Below, piece by piece: positions 2,088 to 49,369 of a stretch of DNA of 64,000 bases. The stretch's first letter is position 1. Every line of letters begins with the position of its first letter. This stretch comes from Anaeromyxobacter paludicola (GTDB lineage: Bacteria > Myxococcota > Myxococcia > Myxococcales > Anaeromyxobacteraceae). The notes beneath the pieces were generated by a model that was not told the DNA's origin, did no database searches, and saw only the letters and a list, made by a program, of their open reading frames with translations. Made by a program: the position numbers and the translations under genes. Location of the stretch: NCBI RefSeq assembly GCF_023169965.1, contig NZ_AP025592.1, positions 1,116,001-1,180,000 of the forward strand. The letters run 5' to 3'.

Positions 2088-3341
2088 TTGGGACGACTGC
2101 TCGACTTCGCCGGCGGCTGCGTCCGGGTCCTCGCGCGCGGCAACCGCGCCTACCGCGCCTGGGTGGCGCTGCTCCTCGCCATGATCGGGACCGGGGCGCT
2201 CGCCTACGCCCACCAGGCGCGGCTCGGCCTCATCGCCACCCACATGCGCGACCAGGTCTCCTGGGCCTTCTACGTGGGCAACTTCACCTTCCTCGTGGGC
2301 GTGGCGGCGGCCGCGGTGCTGCTCGTCATCCCGGCCTACGTCTACGACTGGAAGCCGCTCAAGGAGGTGGTGATCCTGGGCGAGCTGCTCGCCATCTCCG
2401 CCATCGTGATGTGCCTGCTCTTCATCCTCGTGGACATGGGCCGGCCGGAGCGCTTCCTGCACCTCGCCCCGCTGCTGGGGACGCCGCACTGGCCGGCGTC
2501 GCTGCTCACCTGGGACGCGCTGGTGCTGAACCTCTACCTCGCGGTGAACGTGGCGGTGGCGGCGCACATCCTCTACCGCGCCTGGCGCGGCCGCCCCTAC
2601 GACCGCCGGGTGGTGGTGCCGCTCGTGCTCTTCTCCATCCCGATGGCGGTCTCGACCCACACCGTCACCGCCTTCCTGTACAGCGGGATGGCGGCGCGGC
2701 CCTACTGGAACGCCTCGATCCTGGCGCCGCGCTTCCTCGCCTCGGCCTTCTGCTCCGGGCCGGCGGTGCTGCTGGTGCTGTTCCAGGTGCTGCGGCGGAC
2801 GACCGGCCTCGAGATCAAGGACGAGGCCATCTCCAAGGTGGCCGAGCTCATGGCCTACGCCATGTTCGTGAACCTGTTCCTGCTCGGCGCGGAGGTCTTC
2901 AAGGAGTACTACTCCGGCACCGAGCACCTCCTCTACACCCAGTACTTCTGGAGCGGGATCGGGCGGCACCGCGCCCTCGTCCCCTTCGCCTGGACCGGGC
3001 TCGCCTGCAGCCTGGCCGCGTTCCTGCTGTTCCTCGTGCCGCGCACCCGCCACCACCCGGTGACCCTCAACCTCGGCTGCGCCCTCATCTTCGCCGGGGT
3101 CTACATCGAGAAGGGGATGGGGCTCGTGATCCCCGGGATGACGCCGGACACGCTCGGTGAGATCTACGAGTACCGGCCCACCCTCACCGAGTGGCTGGTG
3201 GCGACGGGGATCTTCGGCGTGGGCTTCCTGGTCTTCACGGCGCTCGTGAAGCTGGCCGTGCCCATCCTCTCGGGCCGCCTCCGGGCGTCCGGGACCGCCG
3301 CCGGCGCCCCGCCCGCGCTCGCGCCGGGGGCGGCGCCGTGA
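2088..3341 (+). CDS. NrfD/HybB-like integral membrane quinone subunit
   Basis: A 417-aa polytopic protein with roughly nine to ten hydrophobic helices, beginning at TTG 2088 after GGGAGGGG. It contains long hydrophobic runs and conserved polar positions (for example MGRPERFLHL in the first third and IYIEKGMG-like VYIEKGMG near the end) characteristic of the NrfD/PsrC/HybB family. This family holds the (mena)quinone site and passes electrons to or from a four-cluster ferredoxin. With the two preceding genes it makes a three-part quinone-to-periplasm oxidoreductase. Direction and final partner cannot be read from sequence. A quinol dehydrogenase feeding periplasmic respiratory cytochromes is the simplest guess. 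Confidence 0.87.
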   Translation: MGRLLDFAGGCVRVLARGNRAYRAWVALLLAMIGTGALAYAHQARLGLIATHMRDQVSWAFYVGNFTFLVGVAAAAVLLVIPAYVYDWKPLKEVVILGELLAISAIVMCLLFILVDMGRPERFLHLAPLLGTPHWPASLLTWDALVLNLYLAVNVAVAAHILYRAWRGRPYDRRVVVPLVLFSIPMAVSTHTVTAFLYSGMAARPYWNASILAPRFLASAFCSGPAVLLVLFQVLRRTTGLEIKDEAISKVAELMAYAMFVNLFLLGAEVFKEYYSGTEHLLYTQYFWSGIGRHRALVPFAWTGLACSLAAFLLFLVPRTRHHPVTLNLGCALIFAGVYIEKGMGLVIPGMTPDTLGEIYEYRPTLTEWLVATGIFGVGFLVFTALVKLAVPILSGRLRASGTAAGAPPALAPGAAP

Positions 3342-3353
3342 CCGCGCCGCGCG

Positions 3354-4340
3354 TCACACGTTGACGCGCGACATCATCTGCTCCGGGTAGCGCGGGCCCG
3401 CCGCGGCGCCCCGGGGCGCCACCTCGTCGATGCGCCGGAGCTCGTCCGGCGTGAGCCGGAGGGCGGCGGCGGCGACGTTCTCCTCGAGGTGCTTGCGGGT
3501 GGTGGTCCCCGGGATCGGGACCACGTCGTCGCCGCGCGCGAGCACCCAGGCCAGGGCGAGCTGCGCAGGCTTCACGCCGCGCCCCTCGGCGAGCTCGCGG
3601 ATCCGGGCCACGAGGTCGAGGTTCCTCGCGAAGTTCTCGCCCTGGAAGCGGGGGCTGTTGCGGCGGTAGTCGCCCTCCGGGATGTCCTCCGGCTTCTGGA
3701 AGCGGCCGGTCAGGAACCCGCGGCCGAGCGGGCTGTAGGCCACGAAGCCGATGCCGAGCTCGCGGACGGTGGGGAGGAGCTCGTCGTCCGGGTCGCGGCT
3801 CCAGAGCGAGTACTCGGTCTGCAGCGCGGTGATGGGGTGGACCGCGTGCGCCCGCCGGATGGTGCGCGGGGCCGCCTCGGAGAGCCCGAGGTACCGGACC
3901 TTCCCCGCCCGCACCAGCTCCGCCATCGCCCCCACCGTCTCCTCGATGGGGACGGTGGTGTCCACCCGGTGCTGGTAGTAGAGGTCCACGTGGTCGACGC
4001 CGAGCCGGCGCAGGGAGGCGTCGCAGGCCTGGCGCACGTACTCGGGGCGGCCGTTGATGCCCACGAAGCTGCCGTCGGCCCCCCGCTCGTTGCCGAACTT
4101 GGTCGCGAGCTGCACGCGGTCGCGCCGGCCGCGGAGGGCCCGGCCGACCAGCTCCTCGTTCTTGAACGGACCGTACATGTCGGCGGTGTCGAGGAAGGTC
4201 ACCCCGAGCTCGATGGCCCGCTGGAGGGTGGCGATCGACTCGGCCTCGTCGGCCCCCGCGTAGAACTCGCTCATCCCCATGCAGCCGAGCCCGATGGCCG
4301 ACACCGTGAGCCCCTGCGCGCCGAGCTTCCTCTGCTCCAT
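3354..4340 (-). CDS. aldo/keto reductase (AKR13/YajO-like)
   Basis: A 328-aa NADPH-dependent oxidoreductase with a TIM-barrel fold. The start [20 protein letters not shown] is the family's usual first strand; codons upstream of it are out of family. Visible motifs are GMSEFYAG, the catalytic-region DTADMYG (Asp/Tyr), the Lys of LATKFGN, the His of YYQHRVD, and the cofactor-binding [13 protein letters not shown] near the C-terminus. These support the Tyr/Lys/Asp/His tetrad. The close match in pattern is to plant auxin-induced-like and bacterial AKRs that reduce aldehydes and ketones. It converges with the NrfD gene, 12 bases apart. The physiological substrate is unknown. Confidence 0.9.
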
Positions 4341-4427
4341 GACGTTCCCCTCCTTCGCTGTCGGCCGCCGCGGCCGGCGGGTGGATCTAGCGCCGGGCGG
4401 CCGGGACGCACGCGGAAGACGGCTCAC

Positions 4428-4444
4428 GTAACCGCCGCGGTTAC
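4428..4444. promoter_or_regulatory. 17-bp perfect palindrome upstream of the copper efflux operon
   Basis: GTAACC-GCCGC-GGTTAC, in effect an 8-bp perfect inverted repeat around one central base. It lies 121 bp before the outer-membrane factor gene and 88 bp before the divergent aldo/keto reductase. A 17-bp palindrome of the same form (GTGACC-N5-GGTCAC) lies at 12069-12085 in front of another copper-protein gene, so a shared operator is plausible. The regulator is unknown. Confidence 0.5.
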
Positions 4445-4535
4445 CCTGTGGCGGGGGCCGGCGCCCCGCCGCCCGGGCGGCGCGGCCGCGCTCGCCGGAA
4501 TGGGCGAAACTCGGCGCGTTCTCGGGCCTTGCCTT

Positions 4536-4551
4536 TGGCCCGGGAACTGCA
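4536..4551 (+). promoter_or_regulatory. possible sigma54 -24/-12 element before cusC-like gene
   Basis: TGGCCCG-GGAA-CTGCA keeps the invariant GG-N10-GC spacing of sigma54 promoters, with mismatches in the -24 block (C for A) and -12 block (CTGC for TTGC). If used, transcription would begin only a few bases before the ATG at 4565. It also overlaps an inverted repeat (CGGGCC...GGCCCG, 4523-4542). Weak call. Confidence 0.25.
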
Positions 4552-4564
4552 CAGGCTCGCCGCC

Positions 4565-5986
4565 ATGAAGTGCTCGCTCGCCCTGCTGGCCCTCCTCTCC
4601 GCCTCCGCCGCATCCGCCCAGGAGCCGGCGCGCGGCGCCCCGCCCGACGCGCCCGACCCGATCCTCGAGGGCCTCGTCCAGGACGCGCTGACGCACCGCC
4701 CGGAGCTCGCCCAGTCGTCCACCGCCGTGGAGGCCGAGCGGGAGCGCGTGCCGCAGGCCGGCGCGATGCCGGACCCGATGTTCCAGGTCGGCATCCAGAA
4801 CGACGGCTTCAAGGAGATCCAGATCGGCAAGATGGAGACGAGCTACCTGTCCTTCATGCTCACGCAGCCCTTCTTCTTCCCGGGCAAGCGCGGGCTGCGC
4901 GGCGAGGTGGCCCGGCTCGGCGCCGACCAGGCCGAGGCGGCCGTCGCGCGGATGCGGCTCTCGGTGGAGGCGGAGGTGCGGCGCGCCTACCTCGACCTGC
5001 TCCTCGCCCGCGATCAGCTCGCGCTCCTCGCCCGGACGGAGGCCCTCTGGCTCCAGTCGGAGAAGGCGGCGCGGGCCCGCTACGCGGTGGGCGAGGGCGC
5101 CCAGTCCGACCTGCTCCGGGCCCAGCTCGAGCGGATGCGGCTGCGGCAGCAGCGGCTCGCGCTCGAGGCGCAGGAGCGGACCCGGGTCCAGGAGCTGAAC
5201 CGGCTCCGGCACCGGCCGCTCGCCGAGCCCATCCCGACCGTCCGCCGGATCCGCGATCTCGCCGATCCGGCGCTGCCCCCGGTCGCCGAGGCGCTCGCCG
5301 ACGCCGAGGCGCGCACCCCGGAGCTCGCCCAGGCCCAGCTCGCGCAGGCCCAGGCCGAGAAGCGGGTGGCGCTCGCCCGGCGCGAGAAGCTCCCCGACTT
5401 CACCGTGAGCGCCGGGGTGATGGCGCGCGGCGAGCTCGACCCGATGTGGCAGCTCTCCCTCGGCGTGACGCTGCCGGTCTGGTCGGGGCAGAAGCAGAAC
5501 CGGGCGGTCGCCGAGAGCGCCGCCCGGGCGCGCGGCTCGGCGCACGGCGAGATGGCGGTCCGCGACCTCGTCCGGCTGCGGACCGAGGAGCGGCTCGCCC
5601 TGCTGGCGAGCGCGCGCGAGACGGTGAAGCTCTACCGGCAGGAGCTGCTGGTGCAATCGGAGGCGATGGCGACGAGCACCCTCGGCCAGTACCAGACCGG
5701 GCGGATCCCGTTCGCTTCGGTCCTCGACGGGCTCAACACCTGGCTCGCCACCCAGGGCGGCTTCCTCGACGCCGTGGCGCAGCTGCAGCGGCTCGGGATC
5801 GCCCAGCGTGAGCTCTCGCTGGAGGCGCCGGGCGGCGCGGGGGGCGGCATGGCGACCGGGCCGGTGCCGGGCGCGGGCGGCGGCATGGGCGGGCAGAAGG
5901 CGATGGGCGGCGGCGCGAGCGTGAGCCAGGGCGCCCCGGCGCCGGCGGAAGAGAGCGGCGGCGCCGCGACCTCGGGTGGCATGTGA
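4565..5986 (+). CDS. outer-membrane efflux protein (TolC/CusC family)
   Basis: A 473-aa protein with a signal peptide ([18 protein letters not shown], cleavage likely before QEP). It has the repeated alpha-helical hairpin pattern of the outer-membrane-factor family, with long Ala/Arg/Glu-rich amphipathic helices and two similar halves. It would form the trimeric outer-membrane duct of the metal efflux complex encoded by the next two genes. The C-terminal 45 residues are a Gly/Met/Ala-rich tail ([19 protein letters not shown]) whose Met residues may bind soft metal ions, an inference that fits a Cu(I)/Ag(I) system. The ATG at 4565 is the only start giving a signal peptide. Its stop overlaps a possible GTG start of the adaptor gene. 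Confidence 0.88.
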
Positions 5987-6006
5987 TCCACGGAGACGAG
6001 ACGAAC

Positions 6007-7458
6007 ATGAACGACGGCACCCCCTCCCCCTCCTCGAAGCGCGGCTCCGGCAAGGCGGCCCTCGCCCTCACCCTCGCCGCCGGGCTCGCCCTCGGCGCCG
6101 GCGGCGCGACGCTGCTCGGCCGCGGCGGTCACCGCCACGACGCCAGGGAGGGCACCGGCGCCCCCGCTCCGGCCGCAGAGGCGAAGAAGGTCAAGTACCA
6201 GTGCCCGATGCACCCGACCATCGTGCAGGACCACCCGGGCGAGTGCCCGATCTGCGGCATGCAGCTCGTGGCCATGGACGGCGGCGCCCCGGCGCCGGCC
6301 GGCGGCGCCGCCGGGCGGAAGGTGAAGCTCTACCGCTCGCCCATGGACCCGAAGCAGACCTCGCCCACGCCGCGGAAGGACGAGATGGGGATGGACTACC
6401 TCCCCGTCTACGAGGACGAGCTCGCGGGCGAGGGCGGCCCCAAGGCCGACGGCCTCGCCACCGTCACCATCGATCCGTCGCGGCAGCAGCTCATCGGGCT
6501 CGCCACGGCCGAGGTCACCCGCGGCCAGGTGGGCTCGAGCTGGCGCACGGTGGGGCGGGTCGCGATCGACGAGACCCACGTCCACCACGTGAACGTGAAG
6601 GTGAACGGCTACGTGGAGCGGATCTACGTGGACTTCATCGGCAAGCCGGTGAAGCGCGGCGATCCCCTCTTCTCCATCTACAGCCCCGAGCTCATGAGCG
6701 CGCAGAGCGAGTACCTGCTCGCCCGCGGCACCCGCGCCGCGCTGGCCGAGGGCGGCGCCAGCCCCGCCGGCGGCGACGAGCTCGTGGCCGCGGCCCGCGC
6801 CCGGCTCCGGCTCTGGGACGTGCCCGACTCCGAGATCCGGGAGCTGGAGCGGACCGGCAAGCCGCAGAAGGACCTGCTCCTCGTCTCGCCGATGGCGGGC
6901 GTGGTCACGGCGAAGAGCGTGGTGCACGGGATGCGCGTCAACGCCGGCGACATGCCCTACGAGATCACCGACCTCTCGGAGGTCTGGGTGCTCGCCGACG
7001 CCTACGAGGGCGACCTCGCCCGGCTGCACGTCGGGATGCCGGCCTCCTTCAGGCTCACCGCCTTCCCCGACCGGCAGTTCAAGGGCAAGGTGGCCTTCAT
7101 CGACCCGGTGCTCGACCCGAAGACGCGCACCGCCAAGGTGAGGCTCGCCTTCGCGAACCCCAAGGGCGAGCTGCGCCCCGAGATGTTCGGCGAGGTGACC
7201 CTCGAGTCGGCGCCGCGCGAGGGGCTCCGCGTCCCCTCCGACGCCGTGATCGACTCGGGCGCGCAGAAGGTGGTCTTCGTGGCGCTCGGCGACGGCAAGT
7301 TCCAGCCCAGGCCGGTGGAGCTCGGGGCCGCGAGCGGCGATCAGGTGGAGGTGGCGAAGGGGCTCTCCGAGGGCGAGAAGGTGGTGATCCGCGCCAACTT
7401 CCTCGTCGACTCGGAGTCACGCCTGCGCGCGTCGCTCGCCGCCATGGGAGGCAAGTAG
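6007..7458 (+). CDS. cusB: periplasmic adaptor of Cu/Ag efflux with heavy-metal-binding domain (CusB family)
   Basis: A 483-aa HlyD/CusB-type membrane-fusion protein. A single N-terminal helix (about residues 16-38) anchors it. Residues 64-87 form the YQCPMHP...CPICGM metal-binding module known from CusB/CopA-associated proteins. A second, degenerate copy follows (YRSPMDP...DEMGMDYLPVY), with Cys lost but Met/Asp kept. The barrel-sandwich and beta-barrel regions occupy the rest. I chose ATG 6007 because GGAGACGAG lies just upstream; GTG 5983, overlapping the previous stop, would add eight residues. The protein bridges the inner-membrane pump and the outer-membrane duct and probably delivers Cu(I) or Ag(I). 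Confidence 0.9.
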   Translation: MNDGTPSPSSKRGSGKAALALTLAAGLALGAGGATLLGRGGHRHDAREGTGAPAPAAEAKKVKYQCPMHPTIVQDHPGECPICGMQLVAMDGGAPAPAGGAAGRKVKLYRSPMDPKQTSPTPRKDEMGMDYLPVYEDELAGEGGPKADGLATVTIDPSRQQLIGLATAEVTRGQVGSSWRTVGRVAIDETHVHHVNVKVNGYVERIYVDFIGKPVKRGDPLFSIYSPELMSAQSEYLLARGTRAALAEGGASPAGGDELVAAARARLRLWDVPDSEIRELERTGKPQKDLLLVSPMAGVVTAKSVVHGMRVNAGDMPYEITDLSEVWVLADAYEGDLARLHVGMPASFRLTAFPDRQFKGKVAFIDPVLDPKTRTAKVRLAFANPKGELRPEMFGEVTLESAPREGLRVPSDAVIDSGAQKVVFVALGDGKFQPRPVELGAASGDQVEVAKGLSEGEKVVIRANFLVDSESRLRASLAAMGGK

Positions 7459-37462: not shown

Positions 37463-38422
37463 CTACAGCGCGAGGAAGTGGACGCTGAAGAGCCGCTCGT
37501 CGTCCACCCAGAGGCCGCCCTGGCGGAACCCGGCGCGCGCCGCCAGCGCCACGAACTCGCCGGGGCCGTACTTGTAGGAGCTCTCGGTGTGGATGCTCTC
37601 GCCGTCCTCGAAGCGGAAGGCGCGGCCGAGCGCGTGCACCTCCTGGCGCCCCACGCTCACGAGGTGCATCTCGATCCGGCTGCGCACCCGGTCGAAGAAG
37701 GCCCGGTGGCGGAAGCGGTCGAGGTCGAAGTCGGCGCCGAGCTCCCGGTTGGCCCGCGCGAGGAGGTTCAGGTTGAAGGCGGCGGTGACGCCCAGCCGGT
37801 CGTTGTAGGCCGCCTCCAGCACCGCCGGATCCTTGCGCAGATCCACGCCGATGAGGAGCGCGCCGCCCGGTCCGGCCTGCGAGGCGATGTGGCGCAGGAG
37901 CCCGACCGCCTCCGGCGGGTGGAAGTTCCCGATGGTCGACCCGGGAAAGTACACGGCCCGGCGCGCCGGCTGCAGCCCCTCGAGCGGGAGCGCGAGGTGG
38001 GCGGTGAAGTCGCCGCAGACCGGCCGGATCGGGATCGCCGGGAAGCGCTCCCGCAGCGCCGCCGCCGCCGCGAGGAGCGGCTCGCGCGAGATGTCCACCG
38101 GCACGTAGCCGGCCGGCCGGTCGAGCTCGCGCAGGAGCACGCGGGTCTTGAGCGACGAGCCGGAGCCGTACTCGACGACGACGCAGCGCGGCCCGAGCAG
38201 CGCGGCCATCTCGCCGCCCCAGGTCTCCATGATGTCGAGCTCGGTCCGGGTCGGGTAGTACTCCGGCAGCTCGCAGATGAGGTCGAAGAGCCGCGAGCCG
38301 CGCTCGTCGTAGAAGTACTTGGCCGGGAGCTCCTTCGCCGGGCGCGACAGCCCCTCCACGAGGTCGGCGGCGAAGCCGGTCGCGGTACCGACGAGCGGGG
38401 TGGCGAGGTCGTTCGCGATCAT
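37463..38422 (-). CDS. egtD: L-histidine N(alpha)-methyltransferase, ergothioneine pathway
   Basis: A 319-aa SAM-dependent methyltransferase that makes trimethylhistidine (hercynine), the precursor of ergothioneine. Visible family features: LPAKYFYDERGSRLFDLICELPEYYPTRTE near the N-terminus, the SAM-binding VVEYGSGSSLKTRVLL, PVDISREPLL, FPGSTIGNFHP and the C-terminal IHTESSYKYGPGEF. Start ATG 38422 overlaps the egtB stop by 4 bases. The pair egtB-egtD is the core ergothioneine operon; egtA, egtC and egtE are absent from the window. Confidence 0.94.
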   Translation of the reverse strand: MIANDLATPLVGTATGFAADLVEGLSRPAKELPAKYFYDERGSRLFDLICELPEYYPTRTELDIMETWGGEMAALLGPRCVVVEYGSGSSLKTRVLLRELDRPAGYVPVDISREPLLAAAAALRERFPAIPIRPVCGDFTAHLALPLEGLQPARRAVYFPGSTIGNFHPPEAVGLLRHIASQAGPGGALLIGVDLRKDPAVLEAAYNDRLGVTAAFNLNLLARANRELGADFDLDRFRHRAFFDRVRSRIEMHLVSVGRQEVHALGRAFRFEDGESIHTESSYKYGPGEFVALAARAGFRQGGLWVDDERLFSVHFLAL

Positions 38423-39759
38423 CGGAGATCCTTCGCGACCCGCAGGCCGGCGAGCTGCCAGCGGGCGTCGGGGTAGAAGAAGTTGCGGTAGGTGGGGCGC
38501 AGGTGGGACGCGGGGGTGAAGGCGGAGCCGCCGCGCAGGACGAGCTGGCTCACCATGAACTTGCCGTTGTACTCGCCGAGGGCGCCGGGGGCCGGGGCGA
38601 AGCCGGGGTACGGCGCGTAGGCGCTGCGGGTCCACTCCCAGACGTCGCCGAAGAGCTGACCCGGCCCGTCCGCCGAGGCCGCCGCGCACGGGTGGTAGCG
38701 GCCCGCCTCGGCGAGGTTGCCCGCCACCTCGGCCCCCGAGGCCGCGGCCTCCCACTCCTCCTCGGTCGGGAGCCGCGCCCCGAGGAAGCGGGCCACCGCG
38801 TCGGCCTCGAAGAAGGAGAGGTGCGCCGCCGGCGCGTCGAGGTCGAGCGGCCGCGTCCCCGCGAGCGTGAACTCCGCGAACCCTCCGCCGTCGGGCTCCC
38901 AGTAGAGCGGCGCCTCCCAGCCGCGCGCCTTCACCGCGGCGAAGCCGTCGGAGAGCCAGAGCTCCGGTCGCCGGTAGCCGCCCTCCGCCACGAACTCCGC
39001 CACCTCGCCGTTGGAGACCGGGCGCGCCGCGAGCGCGAAGGGCTCGAGGAACGCCCGGTGCCGGGGCCGCTCGTTGTCGAAGGCGAAGCCCGCGCCGCCA
39101 TCGCCCACCTCCACGAGGCCGCCCGGCAGCGCCTCGAAGCGGAGCGGCCCGGCGGCGGCGCCGGACGGACCGGGCAGGTCGGCGCGCCAGGCGGGCCGGA
39201 GCGGGTTCTGGAAGAGCGCGTGCTTCACGTCGGTGAGGACGAGCTCCTGGTGCTGCTGCTCGTGGTGCAGCCCGAGCTCGAGCACGTCGAGCTCCCCGCC
39301 GCCGCAGCGCCCGGCGTCGAGCCACTCCCCCACCCCGGCGTCCACGTGCGCCCGGTAGGCGTGGACCTCGGCGAGCGACGGCCGCGTGAGGAGCCCGCGC
39401 CGCGGCCGCTCGTGCCTCGGGCCCACCGCCTCGTAGTAGGAGTTGAACAGGTAGGCGAAGCGCGGGTGGAAGCGGGGGCGCCGCGGCAGGGCGCGCGAGA
39501 GGACGAACTCCTCGAAGAACCAGGTCGTGTGCGCGAGGTGCCACTTCACCGGGCTCGCGTCCGGCATCGACTGCACCTGCTGGTCCTCGGGGCTGAGCGG
39601 CGCCGCGAGCGCGAGGGTGGCCCGGCGCACCGCGTCGAAGCGCTCGCGCAGCGTCGCGGCCCTGGCCCGGTCGGGCTCGCCGCGACGCTTCCCCGCACCG
39701 ATCTGGGCCGCGGTCGAGTCCACCTCCGGGAACGTGAGGTGCCGGACCGCCCCGAGCAA
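38419..39759 (-). CDS. egtB: ergothioneine sulfoxide synthase
   Basis: A 446-aa non-heme iron enzyme that joins hercynine to a thiol donor (gamma-glutamylcysteine or cysteine) with O2. The N-terminal DinB-like half carries the iron ligands in VKWHLAHTTWFFEEFVL and LHHEQQHQELVLTD. The C-terminal half is an FGE-sulfatase domain (FDNERPRHRAFLEPFALAARPVSNGE, GDVWEWTRSAYAPYPG, LRGGSAFTP). It starts at TTG 39759 or, 12 codons in, GTG 39723; neither has a perfect Shine-Dalgarno. It is followed by egtD with a 4-base overlap. Confidence 0.93.
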   Translation of the reverse strand: MLGAVRHLTFPEVDSTAAQIGAGKRRGEPDRARAATLRERFDAVRRATLALAAPLSPEDQQVQSMPDASPVKWHLAHTTWFFEEFVLSRALPRRPRFHPRFAYLFNSYYEAVGPRHERPRRGLLTRPSLAEVHAYRAHVDAGVGEWLDAGRCGGGELDVLELGLHHEQQHQELVLTDVKHALFQNPLRPAWRADLPGPSGAAAGPLRFEALPGGLVEVGDGGAGFAFDNERPRHRAFLEPFALAARPVSNGEVAEFVAEGGYRRPELWLSDGFAAVKARGWEAPLYWEPDGGGFAEFTLAGTRPLDLDAPAAHLSFFEADAVARFLGARLPTEEEWEAAASGAEVAGNLAEAGRYHPCAAASADGPGQLFGDVWEWTRSAYAPYPGFAPAPGALGEYNGKFMVSQLVLRGGSAFTPASHLRPTYRNFFYPDARWQLAGLRVAKDLR

Positions 39760-43998: not shown

Positions 43999-45804
43999 GT
44001 GACGACCGCGCCCGCCGAGATCGCCGCGCGACTCCGCGAGCGGCTCGCCGCGCGCCGGGCCCGGCTGGCCGCGCTCGACGCCCACGACGCGCGCTGGGCC
44101 GCTGCCCGGCTCGCCGCCTTCGCCGCCCTGGTCGCGGCGGGCTGGCTCGCCTTCGGCCACCGGCTCTCCTTCGCCTGGTCCCTCGCCCCCGCGCTCGCCT
44201 ACGGCGGGCTCGCCCTGCTCCACGATCGGGCGCTGCGGGCCCGGGCGCGGCTCGGGCGCGCCGTCGCCTTCCACGAGGCGGCGCTGGCGCGCGTGGAGGG
44301 GCGCTGGGCGGGGCGCGGCAACGCCGGCGAGCGGTTCGCCTCCCCGGAGCACCCCTACGCGCTCGACCTCGACCTCTTCGGCCAGGGCTCGCTCTTCGAG
44401 CTGCTCTGCACCGCGCGGACGCGCGCCGGGGAGGAGCGCCTGGCGGGGTGGCTGCTCGCGCCCGCCGGCCCGGACGAGGTGGCGCTCCGCCAGGAGGCGG
44501 TCCGCGAGCTCACGCCGGGCCTCGACCTCGCCGAGGAGCTCTCGGTGCTGGGCGAGGACGTGCGGGCCGAGGTGGACCCGGCCCGCCTCGCCGCCTGGGG
44601 CGAGGCCCCGCCCGCCCTGCCCGCCTGGGCGGCGCCGGCCGCCGCGGCGCTCGCCGCCGTCAACGCGCTGCTCGCAGCGCTCTGGGAGCGGGTGCCGTTC
44701 CTGCCGCTCGCGGGCGGGCTCTCGCTCCTCGCGACCTGGGCGCTCCAGCGGTGGCTCCGCGACCGGGTCGCCGCGGTGCGCGACGCGGTGGACCGCCCGG
44801 CCGCCGAGCTGCGGGTGCTGGGGCTCCTGCTGGCGCGGCTCGAGGCGGAGCCCTTCCGTGCCCCCCTCCTCGCCGGCCTGCGCGAGCGGCTCCTCCGCCC
44901 GGCCCCGGCCTCGCGGCGCATCGCCCGGCTCTCCCGCGCCGCCGAGCTCTTCGAGTGGACGCACAACGAGCTCTTCGCGCTGCTCGGGTTCTTCGTGCTC
45001 TGGAAGCCGCTCGTCGCGGCGCGCGTCGAGCGCTGGCGCCGGCGGGACGGGCGCCACCTGCGCGGCTGGCTGGAGGCCGTCGCGGACCTCGAGGCGCTCT
45101 GCTCCCTGGCGGGCTTCGCCCGCGAGCACCCCGAGCTCACCTTCCCGTCGCTCGCGCCCGGGCCCGCCGCGTTCCGGGCCGAGGGGCTCGCCCACCCGCT
45201 CCTGCCCGGCGCGGTGCCGAACGACGTCGCCCTGGGGGTCGCCGCGCCGGAGCGCGGGGGCGAGGCCCCCAGGCGCGTCCTGCTCGTCTCCGGCTCCAAC
45301 ATGTCGGGGAAGAGCACGCTGCTCCGGACCGTCGGCGCGAGCGCGGTGCTCGCGCAGGCCGGCGCCCCGGTCCGCGCCCGGTCGCTGGCGCTCACGCCCC
45401 TCGCGGTCGGGGCCACGCTGCGGATCCAGGACTCGCTCCAGGCCGGGCGGTCCCGCTTCTACGCGGAGATCACGCGCCTGAAGGAGCTCATGGACCTCGC
45501 CCGCGGCGAGCGTCCGCTCCTGTTCCTCCTCGACGAGATCCTGAACGGCACCAACTCGCACGACCGGCGCATCGGCGCCGAGGCGGTGGTCCGCGCCCTC
45601 GCCGATCGCGGCGCGCTCGGCCTCGTCACCACGCACGACCTCACCCTCACCGAGCTCGGCCGGACGCTCGCCGGGGCGGAGAACGCCCACTTCGAGGATC
45701 AGCTGCGGGACGGCCGGATCGCGTTCGACTACCGGCTGCGCCCGGGCGTGGTGGAGCGCTCGAACGCCCTCGCGCTGATGCGGGCGGTCGGCCTCGAGGT
45801 CTGA
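43999..45804 (+). CDS. membrane-embedded MutS-family ATPase
   Basis: A 601-aa protein. The C-terminal third is a MutS-type ATPase: Walker A SGSNMSGKSTLLRT near residues 432-445, then AVGATLRIQDSLQAGRSRFYAEI, Walker B with LLFLLDEILNGTNSHDR, and VTTHDLTLTEL. It lacks the mismatch-recognition and connector domains of MutS1. Instead the N-terminal part has two hydrophobic helices (about residues 36-75) and another pair (about 208-255) flanking a MutS core-like segment. This points to an inner-membrane protein. Such short MutS relatives exist in other phyla, but their role is unknown to me. GTG 43999 is the most upstream sensible start. It stands alone, convergent with the hydrogenase maturation operon. 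Confidence 0.85.
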   Translation: MTTAPAEIAARLRERLAARRARLAALDAHDARWAAARLAAFAALVAAGWLAFGHRLSFAWSLAPALAYGGLALLHDRALRARARLGRAVAFHEAALARVEGRWAGRGNAGERFASPEHPYALDLDLFGQGSLFELLCTARTRAGEERLAGWLLAPAGPDEVALRQEAVRELTPGLDLAEELSVLGEDVRAEVDPARLAAWGEAPPALPAWAAPAAAALAAVNALLAALWERVPFLPLAGGLSLLATWALQRWLRDRVAAVRDAVDRPAAELRVLGLLLARLEAEPFRAPLLAGLRERLLRPAPASRRIARLSRAAELFEWTHNELFALLGFFVLWKPLVAARVERWRRRDGRHLRGWLEAVADLEALCSLAGFAREHPELTFPSLAPGPAAFRAEGLAHPLLPGAVPNDVALGVAAPERGGEAPRRVLLVSGSNMSGKSTLLRTVGASAVLAQAGAPVRARSLALTPLAVGATLRIQDSLQAGRSRFYAEITRLKELMDLARGERPLLFLLDEILNGTNSHDRRIGAEAVVRALADRGALGLVTTHDLTLTELGRTLAGAENAHFEDQLRDGRIAFDYRLRPGVVERSNALALMRAVGLEV

Positions 45805-46241: not shown

Positions 46242-47303
46242 TCAGCAGATCCGCGGCAGCGACTCCCCGTAGGGCAGGTCGAGGATTCGCTGCCCGCCGA
46301 TGGGGGTACGGAGGGTCACGAAGCCCGGGTGCTCGGCAACCACCCGCCCGATCCGCGCCGCCTCCCGCCCCAGCGGGTGCGACCGCAAGGCGGCGAGGGC
46401 CCGCTCCGCGCCCGCCTCCGGCACGAAGGCCACGAGCTTCCCCTCGTTCGCCACCACGAACGGATCGAGCCCGAGGAGCTCGCAGGCGCCGCGCACCCCG
46501 TCGTGGACCGGCACGGCCCGCTCGTCCACCTCGACGCCCAGCCGCCGCCGGCCGGCGATCTCGCAGAGCGCCGAGGCGAGGCCGCCGCGGGTCGGGTCGC
46601 GCATGGCGTGCACGCCCGGGAAGGCCTCGAGCAGCGCCGCCACCAGCCCGTGCAGCGGCGCGGTGTCGCTCCGCACCTCGCCCCCGAAGGCGAGCCCCTC
46701 GCGCTGCGAGAGGATGGTCACGCCGTGATCGCCGACGGCCCCGGAGAGCAGGATGGCGTCCCCCGCCGCCACCCGGCGCGAGGAGAGCTCGGCGCCCGGC
46801 AGCGCGACCCCGATCCCGGCGGTGTTGACGAAGACCTTGTCTCCCTTGCCCCGGTCCACCACCTTCGTGTCCCCGGTCACCACCTGCACGCCGGCCGCCT
46901 CCGCGGCGCGCCGGATCGACGCGATCACCCGCTCCAGCTCGGAGAGGGCGAGCCCCTCCTCCAGGATGAGCGCCAGCGAGAGGAAGAGCGGCCGGGCGCC
47001 GCCCATGGCGAGGTCGTTGACGGTGCCGTTCACCGCCGGCTCGCCGATGTCGCCGCCGGGGAAGAAGAGCGGCGTGACCACGTAGGAGTCGGTGGTGAAG
47101 GCGAGCCGCGCCCCGCCGGCGTCCACCCAGGCCTGATCGTCGAGCGGCTCGAGCATGGGGTTGCGGAAGGCGGGCAGGAGGAGCTGCTCCACCAGCCGGG
47201 CGGTCAGCTTCCCCCCGCTCCCGTGCCCCATCAGGATCTCCCGGACCTCGGTGAGCGGGACCGGGCAGGCGCCGAACGGCGCGGCGGCGTCGCTAGAGGA
47301 CAT
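46242..47303 (-). CDS. hypE: hydrogenase maturation factor HypE
   Basis: A 353-aa PurM-like protein. HypE dehydrates a C-terminal thiocarbamoyl-Cys to a thiocyanate, which supplies the cyanide ligands of the [NiFe] site. The C-terminus SLPRIC ends with the carrier Cys in the conserved PRIC form. ATP-binding PurM blocks are visible: ILMGHGSGGKLTARL near the start, FTTDSYVVTPLFFPGGDIG, GTVNDLAMGGARP, VVTGDTKVVDRGKGDKVFV and MRDPTRGGLASAL. The start ATG 47303 has GGGGAGGAC just upstream and overlaps the SIS gene's end by 11 bases. Confidence 0.96.
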   Translation of the reverse strand: MSSSDAAAPFGACPVPLTEVREILMGHGSGGKLTARLVEQLLLPAFRNPMLEPLDDQAWVDAGGARLAFTTDSYVVTPLFFPGGDIGEPAVNGTVNDLAMGGARPLFLSLALILEEGLALSELERVIASIRRAAEAAGVQVVTGDTKVVDRGKGDKVFVNTAGIGVALPGAELSSRRVAAGDAILLSGAVGDHGVTILSQREGLAFGGEVRSDTAPLHGLVAALLEAFPGVHAMRDPTRGGLASALCEIAGRRRLGVEVDERAVPVHDGVRGACELLGLDPFVVANEGKLVAFVPEAGAERALAALRSHPLGREAARIGRVVAEHPGFVTLRTPIGGQRILDLPYGESLPRIC

Positions 47304-47870
47304 CGTCCTCCCCGAGGGCGAGGTGGACCTCGTCCCAGAGCAGGTGCAGGAGCAGCGTGTGCGTCTCCTGCACGCGGTGGATGGACCAGGTCCTCACCAC
47401 GAAGAGGTGGTCGCAGAGGTCCGGCATCCGCCCGCCGTCGCGCCCGGCGAAGCCGATGGTGAGGAGCCCGAGCTCGCGGGCGCGCCGCAGCGCCCGGTTG
47501 ACGTTGGACGAGGCGCCGGAGGTCGAGATCCCGAGGGCGGCGTCGCCGGGCCGCGCCTGGATGGCGAGCTGGTCCACGAAGATCTGCGAGAAGTCGGCGT
47601 CGTTGCCGATGGCGGTGAGGGCCGGGGTGGACGAGGTGAGCGCCAGCGCCGGCAAGGGTCGGCGCTTCTCCACGATGGGGTGGACGAACTCGACCGCGGC
47701 GTGCTCGGCGTCGCAGGCCGAGCCGCCGTTCCCGAAGGCGAGGAGCCGCCCGCCGGCGCGGAAGCGCCCGGCCAGCGCGCGGGCGCAGGCGGCGAGCGGC
47801 TCCGCCTGCTCCTCGAAGAAGCGGAGCTTCACCTCGGCGCTCTCGCGCGCCTTGCGCAGGATGGCGTCCC

Positions 47871-47874
<4 letters not shown>
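47293..47874 (-). CDS. SIS-domain sugar-phosphate isomerase-like protein inside the hyp operon
   Basis: A 193-aa GmhA-type SIS protein, starting at GTG 47874, overlapping the hypD stop. It has [46 protein letters not shown] and the C-terminal [20 protein letters not shown]. These contain the substrate-phosphate loop and the Glu/His pairs of sedoheptulose-7-phosphate isomerase. LPS heptose synthesis would be the usual role. But its position between hypD and hypE, with overlapping ends on both sides, links it to hydrogenase maturation or expression instead. Which reaction it performs there is unknown. Confidence 0.85.
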
Positions 47875-48997
<1,123 letters not shown>

Positions 48998-49001
<4 letters not shown>

Positions 49002-49297
49002 GGCGGCTTCCCCCCGGCGTCCGCCGGCGCCCCGCTCCGCTCCCGGTCCGCCCGGTCGGCCGTCAGCTCGGCGGTGTGCCCCATGACGTCGAGGGCCCGG
49101 TAGGCCCGCTCCGCCTCCTCCCGGTCGATGCGCGAGATGGCGAAGCCCACGTGCACCAGCACGAACTCGCCGGGGACGGCGTCGGGCAGGCACTCCAGGC
49201 AGACCTCGCGGACGATGCCGGCGAAGCGCACGTCGGCGAACCGCACCGGCCCGTCCGTCCGGACCGTCAGGATCTCGCCGGGGATGCCGAGGCACAT
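48998..49297 (-). CDS. hypC: hydrogenase maturation chaperone HypC
   Basis: A 99-aa HypC/HupF protein. The N-terminus MCLGIPGEI has the essential Cys2, which is why ATG 49297 is the start rather than upstream codons. Later, the segment [22 protein letters not shown] is typical. It carries the iron-cyanide-carbonyl unit from HypD to the large subunit. It is first gene of the leftward hypC-hypD-SIS-hypE operon, divergent from the structural genes with a 173-bp shared promoter region. The C-terminal 20 residues ([15 protein letters not shown]) exceed the common HypC length and are poorly conserved. Confidence 0.95.
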
Positions 49298-49369
49298 GGC
49301 CCTTAGAACGTGGCGGGCCGGGGCGGCGTCACAAGCTCTCTTCACGGGTCGGCGCCGGTCGGGAGGGAG

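Follow-up and report, generated by a model that had tools for sequence, protein, structure and literature searches.

A widespread lineage of MutS-type ATPases with two predicted membrane hairpins

What could a MutS-type ATPase be doing in a membrane? The question is raised by a gene of Anaeromyxobacter paludicola, found in a stretch of 64,000 nucleotides of contig NZ_AP025592.1 that was analysed as a whole (hereafter the window). A preliminary description had read its product as an intact MutS ATPase core, joined to two pairs of hydrophobic helices that stand in place of the mismatch-binding domains. The features of the gene are collected in Table 1.

Table 1. Features of the membrane-type MutS gene, in window positions
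Feature	Residues	Position	Strand	Basis
Membrane-type MutS ATPase, 601 aa		43999..45804	+	ORF; GTG start (predicted), stop included
Putative TM1, tip of helix 5-54	34-54	44098..44160	+	Family hydropathy; AlphaFold2 helix
Putative TM2, start of helix 58-99	58-77	44170..44229	+	Conservation; AlphaFold2 helix
Start of MutS domain III (core)	117-205	44347..44613	+	Pfam MutS_III in 73/75; structural alignment
Putative TM3	210-228	44626..44682	+	Family hydropathy; AlphaFold2 helix
Putative TM4, start of helix 235-283	235-253	44701..44757	+	Family hydropathy, AlphaFold2 helix; below peak threshold in window protein
MutS domain V ATPase	426-601	45274..45801	+	Pfam MutS_V, profile 2-171/188, E 2.7e-23
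Walker A GSNMSGKS	432-439	45292..45315	+	Motif; 74/75 aligned proteins
Walker B LFLLDE	508-513	45520..45537	+	Motif; 71/75 aligned proteins
His-loop TTHD	544-547	45628..45639	+	Motif; 74/75 aligned proteins

ATPase core and hydrophobic hairpins

The ATPase core proved to be intact, as described. Pfam MutS_V matches residues 429-598 of the window protein with 83.4 bits (cut-off 30.2), and Walker A, Walker B and the His-loop are all present, which places the protein in the MutS superfamily. The end of the MutS_V profile (172-188 of 188) is absent, and the C-terminal helix-turn-helix, an element that assists MutS dimers, is shortened. Up to E 0.1, the only other Pfam match is a weak one to MutS_III on residues 129-181, below its cut-off. 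Full-length alignments of relatives begin at residues 2-18. A family alignment was assembled from the window protein and 74 of 80 loci from GTDB genomes, five incomplete loci and one other (L099) being omitted. At E 0.01, its 75 proteins matched 11 Pfam families, among them MutS_V (75/75) and MutS_III (73/75); MutS_I, MutS_II and MutS_IV (the clamp) were absent from the list. A GTN stretch is present in all 75.

Hydrophobic peaks were defined by a mean Kyte-Doolittle value of at least 1.6. The window protein has 3 such peaks, a number equalled or exceeded in 527 of 2000 shuffles (shuffle mean 1.87). For so alanine-rich a protein, single-protein hydropathy was therefore dropped as proof of membrane helices. 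The family alignment was more informative: each hairpin is hydrophobic at its place in 75/75 rows, all four segments pass in 65/75, and at least 3 peaks are found anywhere in 67/75. The soluble controls were mostly devoid of peaks. Among 24 MutS1 rows, most of them cut at the N terminus by the locus end, 18 had no peak and 6 had one; for 13 MutS2 rows, the numbers were nine with none, three with one and one with three; and for six KamC rows, three with none and three with one. In ten rows of the family alignment, one or more of the four segments show no clear hydrophobic stretch, and one row (L055) has a single peak, below its own shuffles. Since ten shuffled rows of the alignment average 1.6-2.3 peaks, peak counts alone carry little weight, and it is position that decides. 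Charge is rare in the four segments: only 5 to 11% of their columns are charged in at least 20% of rows. We conclude that the two hydrophobic helix pairs of the preliminary description are real segments, as confirmed by conservation in the family sequences and not by the window protein alone.

Conservation differs between the hairpins: it amounts to 1.32 bits for TM1, 1.72 for TM2, 1.08 for TM3 and 1.04 for TM4, with 2.73 bits for the ATPase. In TM2, positions W60, P64, Y/F68 and H75 are conserved, and a basic stretch (net +16.7 per 100) follows directly, on what is presumably the cytosolic side. In TM3 and TM4, hydrophobicity is kept more than the residue letters. This low letter conservation fits a role of TM3 and TM4 as anchors or lever ends more than as a substrate path, while TM1 and TM2 are better conserved, with W, P, Y/F and H at fixed positions, and may do more than anchor the protein. 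The third hydrophobic peak of the window protein, at residues 325-343, coincides with helices 324-332 and 335-376 and could represent a lever tip close to the membrane.

An AlphaFold2 model made with the family alignment (pLDDT 94.7, pTM 0.93) was used to place the hairpins in the MutS fold. It predicts a first long hairpin of helices 5-54 and 58-99, and a second of helices 211-227 and 235-283. Structural alignment against the PDB gave, in the 50 rows listed, MutS and MutS2 structures with Z of 26.1-33.1, aligned from model residues 111-117 to the C terminus. Examples are E. coli MutS (3zlj_B, Z 31.8), Thermus thermophilus MutS2 (7vuf_A, Z 28.9, model residues 117-601 onto MutS2 1-484) and ribosome-bound Bacillus subtilis MutS2 (7qv3_v, Z 27.7). 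None of the 50 listed alignments includes model residues before 111, which leaves the first hairpin outside the MutS core. The preliminary description had named burial of the helices in a soluble core as the finding that would speak against it; the model suggests otherwise, at least for this hairpin. In several alignments, model residue 117 meets residue 270 of E. coli MutS and residue 1 of MutS2, which would put the first hairpin in place of domains I and II. In the model, the second hairpin follows the first part of domain III and precedes the ATPase, and the corresponding stretch in MutS forms the levers and the clamp. It would therefore go with loss of the clamp (domain IV), rather than of the mismatch-binding domain. 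The equivalence of the second hairpin to levers and clamp is approximate, since in profile comparisons the aligned part is confined to residues 349-601 and 353-601, and the MutS1 rows cannot be relied on across this region in the HMM alignment. A motif-spacing count gave values in only 4/75 and 7/13 rows and was set aside. The idea that the helices replace the mismatch-binding domains thus stands for the first hairpin, but not for the second, which belongs to the domain III, lever and clamp stretch.

A separate lineage of the MutS superfamily

The closest NCBIfam models for the window protein were MutS1 (110 bits), MutS2 (86.4 bits) and KamC (74.7 bits), all far below their cut-offs. With MutS1 it shares the ATPase motifs and its top score, but the MutS1 equivalog models require 480 and 641.7 bits, against 110 and 91.4 obtained. 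It also differs by having no recognisable mismatch, connector or clamp domain: no Pfam match to domains I, II or IV was found, up to E 0.1 for the window protein and at E 0.01 for the 75 proteins. Moreover, the host genome (4.59 Mb, single contig) has a MutS1 of its own. It holds three MutS_V genes, namely the membrane type, one that goes with MutS1 (L001) and one that goes with MutS2 (L002) by HMM score and tree, as well as one MutL above its cut-off. MutS2 resembles the membrane type in being devoid of domains I and II and in consisting of core and domain V. However, the score of the window protein is 86.4 bits where MutS2 requires 400, and the membrane type has two predicted membrane hairpins, no recognisable clamp, and no Smr or KOW domain detectable by Pfam in the window protein or its 74 aligned relatives. 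KamC is likewise a MutS-type ATPase and, going by its NCBIfam name (lysine 5,6-aminomutase reactivase ATPase), has a protein substrate; it differs by its few hydrophobic peaks and by its own branch, which adjoins MutS2 in a quick tree, and the window protein stays well under its cut-off of 300 bits.

A closer likeness was found with MutS-like proteins of about 540 aa, for example from Staphylococcus aureus (WP_000106330), Ruminococcus albus (WP_013483470) and Spirosoma (WP_232563919), which belong to the same membrane clade. By peak position they share the second hairpin, both segments of which pass the threshold in 4/9 rows. No first hairpin was seen in this one-hairpin type (one row, L218, is cut short and uninformative), and 3/9 rows (L204, L205 and L208) have a single, separate N-terminal hydrophobic segment. 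Scores against an HMM of the family alignment ranged from 437 to 812 bits for two-hairpin proteins, seven of which were already in the alignment and hence not independent, and from 180 to 212 bits for the one-hairpin type, which has just the second hairpin. Two soluble proteins, some 500 aa long, scored 143-161, MutS1 at most 146, and MutS2 and KamC at most 96 bits.

The phylogeny against MutS2 that the preliminary description had proposed was computed on the ATPase region of 82 rows, giving an unrooted tree whose bootstrap is not fully settled. Eight MutS1 rows had been removed for thinning, as had eight 'other' rows, five of them long-branched and three placed with MutS2 in the quick tree. 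All membrane-type rows (36 with two hairpins and nine with one) fall on one branch with support 100/97, found in 100% of 200 bootstrap trees, while the two-hairpin rows alone have 95/67. The 13 MutS2 rows form a distinct group (100/96), and so do the six KamC rows (99/96); the MutS1 rows do not make up a single group, two changes being required. Two soluble 500-aa rows attach to the membrane-type rows (99/99), a grouping that carries a long-branch warning. The quick tree of all 98 rows agrees, with a support of 95 for the membrane clade. The nearest named row to the window protein comes from Anaeromyxobacter oryzisoli (L069). Taken with the predicted hairpins, this indicates that the membrane type forms its own lineage within the MutS superfamily, distinct from MutS1, MutS2 and KamC; one origin is the simplest reading of the unrooted tree.

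Side observations were made on related genes. The soluble MutS-like proteins, some 500 aa in length, that the tree places with the membrane clade come from loci L179 and L190 (G194); the SAR86-labelled genome has five MutS_V genes. Acidicapsa dinghuensis (G198, L221) has two adjacent divergent MutS_V genes (2857-6200, minus strand; 552 and 571 codons) with long branches in the quick tree.

The lineage is far from rare. Among 193 sampled genomes of the phylum of the window, 124 carry a membrane MutS (best E <= 1e-60). In a phylum sample around an Acidobacteriaceae genome, 15/60 match at 1e-50, one of them over a C-terminal stretch only, and in another around a genome labelled Bacillota (G193), 11/61 match, ten at full length and one (G217) of the shorter type. 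Record titles add Planctomycetota, Gemmatimonadota, Eiseniibacteriota, Verrucomicrobiota, Lentisphaerota, Binatota, Pseudomonadota, Bdellovibrionota and Bacteroidota. The labels thus name eleven phyla besides Myxococcota, although many records are metagenome bins and single labels may err. The protein had been regarded as an unexpected case; tree and phylum samples make it instead a member of a widespread clade of its own, and not a one-off fusion. That a membrane lineage on one branch bears the labels of a dozen phyla suggests an ancient and retained recruitment of the MutS ATPase to the membrane.

Four genomes (G111, G117, G160 and G019) gave four matches, compared to the usual three. Two of them, G111 and G117, clearly have two full-length membrane MutS copies; in G019, the extra match is 55% identical over residues 334-601, and lies in a 494-codon frame.

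A passage of PMC12292046, citing Ogata 2011, states that many prokaryotic MutS subfamilies devoid of domains I and II are largely uncharacterised, and the membrane clade may already be numbered in Ogata 2011. Among the matches listed from openly licensed PMC papers, we recognised no description of a membrane MutS. In public genomes, members are annotated as 'MutS family DNA mismatch repair protein' or 'DNA mismatch repair protein MutS', probably wrongly. The clade is apparently an old, widespread and unstudied branch, whose role is probably not mismatch repair.

Possible function

In MutS dimers, ATP binding moves levers that carry DNA clamps. Our main reading, to which we give a probability of roughly 45%, is that the membrane-embedded lineage is a mechanochemical remodelling ATPase acting on a membrane protein or a membrane-bound complex, and not in mismatch repair. 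The protein would lie in the inner membrane, with its N and C termini in the cytoplasm, and, like MutS proteins, would form a dimer by way of its ATPase sites; binding and hydrolysis of ATP would then move the lever helices. As DNA clamps are missing and the helices are predicted to end in the membrane, it is the membrane helix bundle, or else a partner located in the arch between membrane and ATPase, that would receive the movement. Such coupling of the ATP stroke to the bundle is proposed by homology. The outcome would be the remodelling of a membrane-bound partner. Several observations count against this reading: the hydropathy of the window protein stays within chance, TM1 and TM2 are conserved well enough that they may do more than anchor, the C-terminal helix-turn-helix is shortened, and no neighbour gene recurs widely enough to point to a partner. 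MutS2 of B. subtilis splits stalled ribosomes, according to a passage of PMC10897456, and with KamC, whose name points to an aminomutase, this shows that the MutS ATPase module can act on proteins; roles away from DNA are already known in the superfamily. We tentatively entertain a broader proposal, which has perhaps one chance in three: the lineage would be a third functional branch of MutS, in which the lever machine was rewired once, early in bacterial evolution, into a membrane motor that drives or senses a bundle of transmembrane helices. The preliminary description had suggested a membrane-fixed ATPase with a different substrate; given the hairpins, the absence of domains I, II and IV and the model, this is still the best reading, shorn of its exceptional status.

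Three other explanations were weighed. The protein might be soluble after all, its hydrophobic helices serving as an oligomerisation or core element. The hydropathy of the window protein, within chance for its composition, and the ten rows with a missing segment are consistent with this, but a soluble element would hardly account for two hairpins that stay hydrophobic throughout the family with so few charged columns, for helices of 42-50 residues of which the first pair lies outside the MutS core, or for the related one-hairpin type, with its second hairpin kept and a separate N-terminal hydrophobic segment in some rows. We consider a soluble protein very improbable. A second proposal is that the protein rescues ribosomes that have stalled at the membrane, as a membrane-bound counterpart of MutS2. 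It would use the same ATPase module as the ribosome-splitting MutS2 of B. subtilis, to whose ribosome-bound structure the model aligns. However, the KOW and Smr domains, which recruit MutS2, were not found by Pfam, and the host genome also has a soluble MutS2-type gene; this role appears decidedly unlikely.

The protein could also be a membrane-tethered DNA ATPase, which would hold or process branched or incoming DNA, or attach the chromosome, in a wide channel like that of MutS2. The MutS core is kept, and MutS2, equally devoid of domains I and II, is reported in a passage of PMC12292046 to bind Holliday junctions and D-loops. Against this, the DNA-binding clamp is unrecognisable (domain IV in 0/75), and no recurring DNA-processing neighbour was seen in 78 loci or in 21 Myxococcota loci. 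In Myxococcus xanthus, mitomycin C lowers the 'MutS-related protein' MXAN_3030, a candidate relative only, instead of raising it: according to a passage of PMC12288472, the change is log2 -1.7 at 10 h, with no significant effect at 5 h. Nothing tying the membrane MutS to DNA was found in the domains, neighbours or literature examined, and we regard a DNA role as rather unlikely. Remodelling of a membrane-bound partner is the reading that we retain.

Gene neighbourhood and mobility

Upstream of the gene, on the same strand, are an epimerase/DUF2867 gene, a photolyase-like gene (323 bits, below the model cut-off) and an alpha/beta hydrolase gene; the downstream genes, including hypE, are on the opposite strand. 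Neighbours were counted in 78 of the 80 loci of the GTDB scan, whose flanks differ in length; two loci (L074 and L127) were dropped as our crude gene caller missed the gene. Across phyla, the commonest neighbour cluster occurs in 5/78 loci only, at scattered positions. Among 21 Myxococcota loci (the window and 20 others), the largest cluster has 8 loci, and merges two different sigma-54 activators at different positions. An operon clue to a partner was rejected on these grounds.

Two local arrangements provide weak leads. In 4/21 Myxococcota loci (L156, L158, L161 and L162, family f4), a Crp-like regulator gene lies immediately upstream, preceded on the same strand by a sigma-54 response regulator gene, and three of the four also have a histidine kinase gene (Pfam was run on L156 only). 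This cassette is the only hint of signalling, and a local one. The suggestion of a membrane-linked role in DNA or signalling thus retains this hint on its signalling side, and nothing on its DNA side. Thiolase and 3-hydroxyacyl-CoA dehydrogenase genes are found near four loci of two families (L154, L155, L156 and L160, with a different orientation in L160; Pfam was run on L154 only), a weak lead towards fatty-acid beta-oxidation.

A defence system was rejected: no PADLOC model matched the window protein, and two of three relatives gave weak matches to the P-loop only. A mobile gene was rejected as well: matches were obtained in 10 plasmid and 16 phage records, but no single stretch in any of them spans 80% of the query. 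Two plasmid records hold two-hairpin members (L203 and L206), yet they carry housekeeping genes. The 'plasmid' records of L203 and L204 (NZ_OY725917.1 and NZ_CP077935.1), with ribosomal-protein or ilv/tsa genes, are perhaps pieces of chromosome, and an unannotated 'Listeria phage' scaffold (OR848760.1, L208) with a bacterial-looking one-hairpin MutS gene is perhaps carry-over of host DNA.

Two other groups of genes were noticed in the window. At 37463-39759 (minus strand), a gene for a histidine-specific methyltransferase (Methyltransf_33) adjoins one for an FGE-sulfatase/DinB_2 protein (Pfam), an arrangement that resembles an EgtD-EgtB pair for ergothioneine synthesis. At 46242-49345 (minus strand), genes for HypE, a SIS-domain protein, HypD and HypC form a hydrogenase maturation cluster with the SIS-domain gene inside it.
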